Assembly (NCBI RefSeq): GCF_913055165.1
Contig: NZ_CAJXJS010000003.1
Coordinates: forward strand, 1 to 64,000
Origin: an uncultured Devosia sp.
GTDB lineage: Bacteria > Pseudomonadota > Alphaproteobacteria > Rhizobiales > Devosiaceae
DNA: 64,000 nucleotides
Direction of reading: 5' to 3'
The notes under the pieces: model-generated
Database searches by the model: none
The model's input: only the letters and a program-made list of their open reading frames with translations
Told to the model about the DNA's origin: nothing
Position numbers and translations under genes: made by a program
Shown: in pieces, positions 39,703-40,714 of the stretch
Layout of the letters: each line of letters starts with the position of its first letter
Position numbering within the stretch: position 1 is the first letter of the stretch

Positions 39703-40116
39703 TCAGACCAGCCGAGCGCCGGCAAATGACCGCTCGGCCACGCTGTCGCAGAGGCCAGACCACTCGCAACCCGCACAGGCGGCCCGAACGGCGCCGCTCC
39801 GAAAAGCGGTGCGTAACGTGGACAGTGTTGATTTTGTCAGCTCAAGGTCGCTCAGATCGGCCAGCCCGAGCGACTTTGATATTTTCAGTCTCGCCAAACG
39901 ATCGCGTTCTACGACACTCTCGTTGTGGCAGTGCGTATCCCGGGTGCCCAGCAGGGGGCCGCAGATATCGTCAGGGCCTTCGACCAGTTGGATCGCTTCG
40001 CCCGCCGCCAGCAGGGCAACGATACGATCATAGTTCTCGACAAAGGCAGGGGAATATCCCCTGCCAATATAGGTCATGAGGCACAACAGATGGTGCGCTC
40101 TCAGCCGGACCGTCAA
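39703..40116 (-). CDS. DUF1284 cysteine-rich protein, coupled to bioY
   Basis: About 137 residues. It matches DUF1284 in RLRAHHLLCLMTYIGRGYSPAFVENYDRI, GPDDICGPLL and the middle HCHNESVVERDRLA. The C-terminus has CAGCEWSGLC. In total there are more than six cysteines plus a His pair, which suggests metal or Fe-S binding. I choose the TTG at 40116, which overlaps the bioY stop (TTGA) and gives the usual N-terminus; a GTG at 40134 is an alternative. The long track ORF upstream of it is an antisense artefact of bioY. No function is established to my knowledge. Confidence 0.75.
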   Translation of the reverse strand: MTVRLRAHHLLCLMTYIGRGYSPAFVENYDRIVALLAAGEAIQLVEGPDDICGPLLGTRDTHCHNESVVERDRLARLKISKSLGLADLSDLELTKSTLSTLRTAFRSGAVRAACAGCEWSGLCDSVAERSFAGARLV

Positions 40117-40688
40117 CGGGCCGACCAATGCCACACGCCAGCCAGTACGGCCGCGGCCAGGGCCGACTTGAGCACTCCACCGACGATGAACGGCAGAACG
40201 CCATGGACAATGGCCGGCTCCACGCCAATGAGTACCGCAAGCCAGGCAGCGCCCAGGACCAGGCAGGCCATGTTTCCCAAAAGCGCTGCGGAGAAGGCGA
40301 GGACGGGGCGGGTTCCATTCCATCCGCGTTCCGTCAGCCACCCGACAAGCATCCCGCATACGGGAAACGCAAAGAGATAGCCGCCAGTGGAGCCCAGAAA
40401 GTGCTGGGCGCCGGACGCGCCACCCGCCAGCACGGGCAGTCCCATGGCGCCCTCCAGCAACCAGGCCACGATGGTTATGCCACCCAGGCGCCAGCCATAA
40501 AGGGCGCCGACCATGGTGACGGCGAATGTCTGCATGGTCATGGGAACCGGCACCATAGGCACTTCGACATAGGATGACAGTGCCAGAATGAGTGTTCCCA
40601 AGACCACGGCACCCACCTTCCAGGTCAAGGACCTGTCGGCCAGTTTCAGGGGGCTGCCGACGTGATCGACGGTATCAAGCTGATCCAT
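40113..40688 (-). CDS. bioY: Biotin transporter BioY (ECF S component)
   Basis: A 191-residue membrane protein with six predicted helices and the BioY signature VPMVPVPMTMQTFAVTMVGALYGWRLG, LPVLAGGASGAQHFLGSTGGYLFAFP. It takes up biotin, alone or with ECF ATPases, which are not present in this window. The start is preceded by GGAG. A BioR box overlaps its probable -10 region, and the bioR gene lies upstream in the same direction. It overlaps the DUF1284 gene by 4 bp. Confidence 0.95.
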   Translation of the reverse strand: MDQLDTVDHVGSPLKLADRSLTWKVGAVVLGTLILALSSYVEVPMVPVPMTMQTFAVTMVGALYGWRLGGITIVAWLLEGAMGLPVLAGGASGAQHFLGSTGGYLFAFPVCGMLVGWLTERGWNGTRPVLAFSAALLGNMACLVLGAAWLAVLIGVEPAIVHGVLPFIVGGVLKSALAAAVLAGVWHWSAR

Positions 40689-40704
40689 ATTCTACTCCCG
40701 CGAA

Positions 40705-40714
40705 TTATAGATAA
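40705..40714. promoter_or_regulatory. BioR operator box before bioY
   Basis: TTATAGATAA (minus strand TTATCTATAA) matches the BioR palindrome described in alphaproteobacteria. It lies 17 bp before the bioY start and overlaps a TATAAT-like hexamer on the minus strand, so binding would block transcription. Confidence 0.8.

Follow-up and report, generated by a model that had tools for sequence, protein, structure and literature searches.

A DUF1284 gene coupled to an altered bioY behind a BioR operator in an uncultured Devosia

Why should the gene for a small, cysteine-rich protein of the DUF1284 family overlap that of a biotin transporter? This question is raised by a locus in the 64,000-nucleotide stretch of an uncultured Devosia sp. 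genome that was analyzed here as a whole (the window), where bioR, a BioR operator, bioY and a DUF1284 gene follow each other in this order on the minus strand (Table 1). The overlap between the bioY stop and the DUF1284 start, as well as the BioR box in front of both genes, had been pointed out in an earlier note on this DNA. Both are real, the DUF1284 frame opening on a TTG codon and the box being an exact match. The gene just upstream of bioY, which is absent from that note, is bioR.

Table 1. Features of the bioR-bioY-DUF1284 locus, with positions in the window.
Feature	Position	Strand	Basis
bioR: GntR/FCD transcriptional regulator, 222 aa	40791-41459	-	GntR + FCD domains, identity to bio-flanking GntRs
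BioR operator TTATAGATAA (minus strand TTATCTATAA), centre of AATTATAGATAATT	40705-40714	.	exact match
TATAAT, possible -10 element overlapping the BioR box	40704-40709	-	read from sequence, unproven
bioY variant, 191 aa, S-component of ECF-type biotin importer	40113-40688	-	PF02632, 117.4 bits (cut-off 25)
TTGA, 4-bp overlap of DUF1284 start and bioY stop	40113-40116	-	sequence
DUF1284 protein gene, 137 aa, TTG start	39703-40116	-	PF06935, 63.9 bits (cut-off 25)

The window regulator shares 73–75% identity with the GntR/FCD regulators encoded next to bioBFDAGC in a number of Paracoccus species, and ~70–75% with those that accompany bioBFDA (Phyllobacterium, Sinorhizobium) or bioY-bioB (Rhodobacterales plasmids). 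Judged by these sequence identities, it is an ortholog of the characterized BioR. The 14-mer AATTATAGATAATT, in which the operator TTATAGATAA is embedded, forms the core of the gel-shift probe used for P. denitrificans bioR1 (PMC4554459). Exact TTATMKATAA sites occur three times in the whole 3.87 Mb genome, less often than a reversed control pattern, and the site before bioY is the only one among them that has the TTATAGATAA/TTATCTATAA form. Because of this rarity, the 50 bp before bioY are unlikely to contain a match by chance. Sites with one mismatch, of which the genome has 61, are so common that they are uninformative. The earlier note had also placed the box over the -10 region. A TATAAT on the minus strand does overlap it, but no matching -35 was found for this element, and a consensus promoter scan reported no promoter on the minus strand; that the box covers the -10 region is suggested by the sequence and plausible, if unproven.

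The locus resembles the alphaproteobacterial BioR regulon (P. denitrificans, Brucella, Agrobacterium) in its GntR/FCD regulator, in its TTATCTATAA operator, in the position of bioR next to its target and in having bioY as a target, but differs in that the only strong box of this genome faces bioY-DUF1284 and that there is no bioB. With the sole strong operator in this position, the window bioR looks like a dedicated local regulator. An autoregulation box was not found before its own start, where the best upstream match has four mismatches. The bioR-bioY-DUF1284 triad recurs in the genus and the family: of 23 triads, 22 carry an exact TTATCTATAA/TTATAGATAA ahead of bioY, and about half also have a box ahead of bioR that is either exact or altered at one end base. 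The BioR papers found (PMC4554459, PMC5343134) name bio genes, and not DUF1284, as targets, and neither DUF1284 nor COG3543 is mentioned in the open papers searched, so that an earlier mention in a subscription paper is possible. Two cases deserve a remark: the 48-kb plasmid pRvVAT039d of Agrobacterium vitis (L070, L243) carries the triad together with a second bioR-like gene, and in G036 (contig C12), the genome of a relative, two identical triad copies (L163, L164), flanking genes included, lie ~28 kb apart in opposite orientation, either as an extended inverted repeat or through an error of assembly.

The tie between DUF1284 and biotin uptake extends well beyond this genome and beyond BioR. 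The neighbor survey that the earlier note had proposed, with a lack of association with bioY in other genomes as the refuting outcome, found bioY directly before DUF1284, in the same orientation, for 44 of the 61 loci drawn from unbiased samples of the relatives, the class and the phylum (L007, added by inspection, is included in this count). Such tandems also exist without a box, both in alphaproteobacteria with small genomes (L033–L036, L040) and in Clostridia (L146, L148, L149, L151, L153), so that the link holds across phyla and does not depend on BioR. The tandem loci are spread over several separate lineages of the DUF1284 tree. Among the 56 tandem loci scored for overlap, 37 have the exact 4-bp NTGA arrangement, with ATG, GTG or TTG as start codon, while the genes overlap by 1 bp in two further loci and by 10 bp in four Clostridia. 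Annotated plasmid copies of the pair are present in Rhodovulum, Agrobacterium vitis, Dinoroseobacter, and Pseudosulfitobacter.

Rhodobacterales have a second DUF1284 subfamily, whose genes are often arranged tail-to-tail with bioY (35 loci; the search had started from Rhodobacterales sequences, and its counts do not represent a random sample). Many DUF1284 genes of Planctomycetota, Chloroflexota, and Bdellovibrionota, and some of Rhodobacterales, are located away from bioY, and the family may therefore have other roles as well. In Paracoccus ferrooxidans (L075, 5022-5402) a member of the second subfamily directly follows the citrate synthase gene gltA and not bioY, and by this neighbor part of the family may serve another function. 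In Bdellovibrionota, DUF1284 is found in one open frame with a putative signal or membrane segment (L124, 2976-5336; L136, 6001-8268; L137, 6001-8301; L134, 2131-3237; L131, partial), and the three complete frames also include an SLT domain of lytic transglycosylases.

The most important new finding is that the BioY paired with DUF1284 is altered, a change that the earlier note had not mentioned. According to mutagenesis of the Rhodobacter capsulatus protein, Asp164 and Lys167 are reportedly essential for biotin binding and transport. In the alignment of the window BioY (PFIVGGVLK) with the L. lactis protein (FIPGDCIK; structure 4dve), the Lys of this GDxxK motif, which lies in the last membrane helix, is kept, but Asp is replaced by Gly. 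The window protein agrees with solitary BioYs (S-components of ECF biotin transporters; structure 4dve) in its PF02632 domain, in the retained Lys and in the lack of an ECF module in the genome, and departs from them in the Gly and in an altered loop before helix 2, in which the paired BioYs carry S-[YQ]-x-E-V-P-M. As the Asp is not kept, we class it as a variant of the BioY family and not as a proven biotin transporter. A core bioY elsewhere in the genome, whose product is 39% identical to the window BioY, has kept the Asp and has no DUF1284 gene next to it.

The same division runs through the other genomes. Counted over distinct sequences, Asp or Glu is found at this position in 3 of 54 paired versus 43 of 46 unpaired BioYs (Fisher's exact test, p ~5e-21, a value that ignores relatedness); on the tree, loss and pairing provide only 2–4 independent contrasts, too few for formal significance. 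The residues that replace Asp differ between lineages, being G or A in the main alphaproteobacterial clade, P-G in the small-genome alphaproteobacteria, T-A or T-S in Clostridia, and G-T in family f87. Exceptions exist in both directions: three paired BioYs have the Asp (L004, L040, L153), and two unpaired ones, in genomes without DUF1284, do not (L189, L199). In two genomes (G061, L168; G891, L232) a DUF1284 gene that belongs to a tandem clade is no longer next to bioY, and BioY is still without Asp, which lends independent support to the correlation between Asp loss and DUF1284. Asp or Glu is kept in the six BioYs from genomes with a DUF1284 of the non-tandem type, and in 33 of the 37 neighbor BioYs of Rhodobacterales. 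A genome of the Oscillospiraceae (Clostridia; G887) contains two bioY-DUF1284 pairs (L234, L238), and both of its paired BioYs are Asp-less.

The partner protein lives up to its earlier description as cysteine-rich. Its six cysteines, at positions 12, 52, 63, 114, 117, and 123, are all invariant in the 55–65 aligned relatives and lie in the motif R-x-H-H-x-x-C ... D-x-x-C ... H-C ... C-x2-C-x-W-x3-C, and the invariant residues include R6, H8, C12, G20, Y21, D49, C52, C63, D72, C114, C117, W119, and C123. By its score, its HH motif and all six core cysteines it is a regular member of the DUF1284 family, but unlike most members, the clade of the window protein lacks the second cysteine of a CxxCP motif, and six of the seven conserved cysteines of the family are left. 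Besides DUF1284, the protein contains no Pfam domain, and in particular no radical-SAM domain. AlphaFold models of the window protein and of a Rhodobacterales relative reach pLDDT values of 81.5 and 96.6, respectively; a fold search of the PDB with both models gave no match at E < 0.7, and a sequence search of the PDB with the DUF1284 profile found no relative. DUF1284 would be a cytoplasmic, Cys/His-rich protein that, judged by its cysteine pattern, probably binds a metal or an Fe-S cluster.

The genome lacks bioB (best profile match 36.6 bits, cut-off 225), and a PF02361 search of the assembly, which is 94% complete, gave no match for EcfT. Among the DUF1284-bearing genomes tested, bioB is absent from 50 of 60, comprising 25 of the 27 relatives and 25 of the 33 others; this is no enrichment, because most relatives are without bioB anyway.

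Taking gene order, overlap, operator, identity of the regulator, pairing across phyla, loss of the Asp, and absence of bioB and EcfT as features read from the DNA, we consider the chances about even that bioR, bioY, and the DUF1284 gene constitute a BioR-controlled cassette with which a biotin auxotroph takes up, and probably salvages, biotin or a related compound. From the operator at 40705-40714, BioR would repress bioY-DUF1284, and the solitary S-component BioY with its altered binding site would import biotin or a related compound. DUF1284, translated in coupling with bioY, would serve BioY in the cytoplasm as a dedicated partner and, as a probable metal or Fe-S binder, would most likely act on the imported compound in an enzymatic step. 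We favor such an action as most likely over a role as transporter subunit. The presence of DUF1284 locked to an Asp-less BioY in distant bacteria suggests a so far undescribed two-part route for the uptake or recycling of biotin or biotin-like compounds. In its most specific form, which we put forward tentatively, the paired BioYs would be a specificity class of their own, for a vitamer or derivative of biotin instead of free biotin; DUF1284, a metal- or Fe-S-dependent enzyme, would convert the imported compound to usable biotin, and this salvage route would be common to alphaproteobacteria and Clostridia.

A comparison with the bioR-bioYB operon (P. denitrificans; plasmids pAMI8 of P. aminophilus and pOT1-8 of Haematobacter) is instructive here. 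Both systems share the regulator, the order bioR-bioY-second gene, and a second gene that overlaps or abuts bioY, but this gene is bioB in one and DUF1284 in the other. Moreover, the BioYs of the comparable bioYB operons examined (L165, L183) keep the Asp of GDxxK, whereas the window BioY does not. In bioYB, BioY has been argued to import dethiobiotin and the enzyme encoded by the second gene to convert the imported precursor (PMC4554459). That a converting enzyme holds the same operon position is suggestive by analogy of DUF1284 being an enzyme that acts on the import. Cassettes of bioR and bioY with bioB in place of DUF1284, a clean gene swap, were seen on annotated Rhodobacterales plasmids (L244, L245, L246) and in L165.

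The main rival explanation regards DUF1284 as a structural or energizing partner at the cytoplasmic face of the solitary BioY, which would help to release or trap biotin and thereby replace the ECF module or the lost Asp. A role of this kind would suit a protein that in alphaproteobacteria as well as in Clostridia is paired specifically with BioY, a translational coupling that suggests fixed stoichiometry, and a genome without EcfT in which the paired BioY, like others of its kind, has lost the Asp. However, the core BioY of the same genome, equally without EcfT, keeps its Asp and manages without an adjacent DUF1284, and in several phyla DUF1284 also occurs apart from bioY. We regard this explanation as possible but rather doubtful.

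Far less probable is that DUF1284 replaces BioB, so that biotin would be made from imported dethiobiotin or another late precursor. DUF1284 does follow bioR-bioY where other operons have bioB, and most of the genomes concerned lack bioB, and the import of dethiobiotin argued for the BioY of bioYB (PMC4554459) would provide the substrate, but a protein of 137 amino acids without a radical-SAM domain is a poor candidate for this task, DUF1284 coexists with bioB in 10 of the 60 genomes, and Dinoroseobacter shibae remains a biotin auxotroph although it carries DUF1284 on its 191-kb plasmid as part of the pair (PMC8831719). It is also highly improbable that DUF1284 acts as a co-regulator or sensor that reports the biotin or redox state to BioR: the shared operon with bioR in alphaproteobacteria would invite this interpretation, but in Clostridia and in the small-genome alphaproteobacteria the pair persists without BioR and its box.

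As one example of a role in biotin metabolism, besides salvage, the earlier note had named a supply of sulfur or Fe-S by DUF1284. The conserved cysteines and the fact that bioB holds the operon position of DUF1284 in plasmids of the Paracoccus type would speak for such a supply to biotin synthase, but DUF1284 is kept in genomes devoid of bioB, the present one among them, and the absence of bioB from most DUF1284-bearing genomes rules out a general role in feeding BioB. We therefore reject this proposal as very improbable. Least probable of all, and likewise rejected, is a neutral hitch-hiker on a mobile bioR-bioY cassette, for although plasmid-borne copies and a patchy distribution in the genus would fit, all six cysteines are invariant, the overlap is maintained while the start codon varies, and the pairing recurs in separate lineages; a frameshifted or decayed DUF1284 gene behind an intact bioY was not seen among the loci of this analysis.

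Among bacteria associated with algae, plants, and animals, biotin auxotrophy is widespread, and their ways of scavenging biotin determine which partner depends on which. With a conserved BioY partner that is tied to BioYs without a supposedly essential binding residue, the cargo of these BioYs and the action of DUF1284 become testable questions. The plasmid of D. shibae on which the pair is located determines whether the bacterium kills its dinoflagellate partner, and next to the pair it has an operon for biotin uptake that is required for this killing (PMC8831719). On this plasmid, pDSHI01 (L072), the operon bioY-ecfA-ecfT faces bioY-DUF1284, and its last gene (7283-8215 of L072) has been named a 2OG-Fe(II) oxygenase (PMC8831719).
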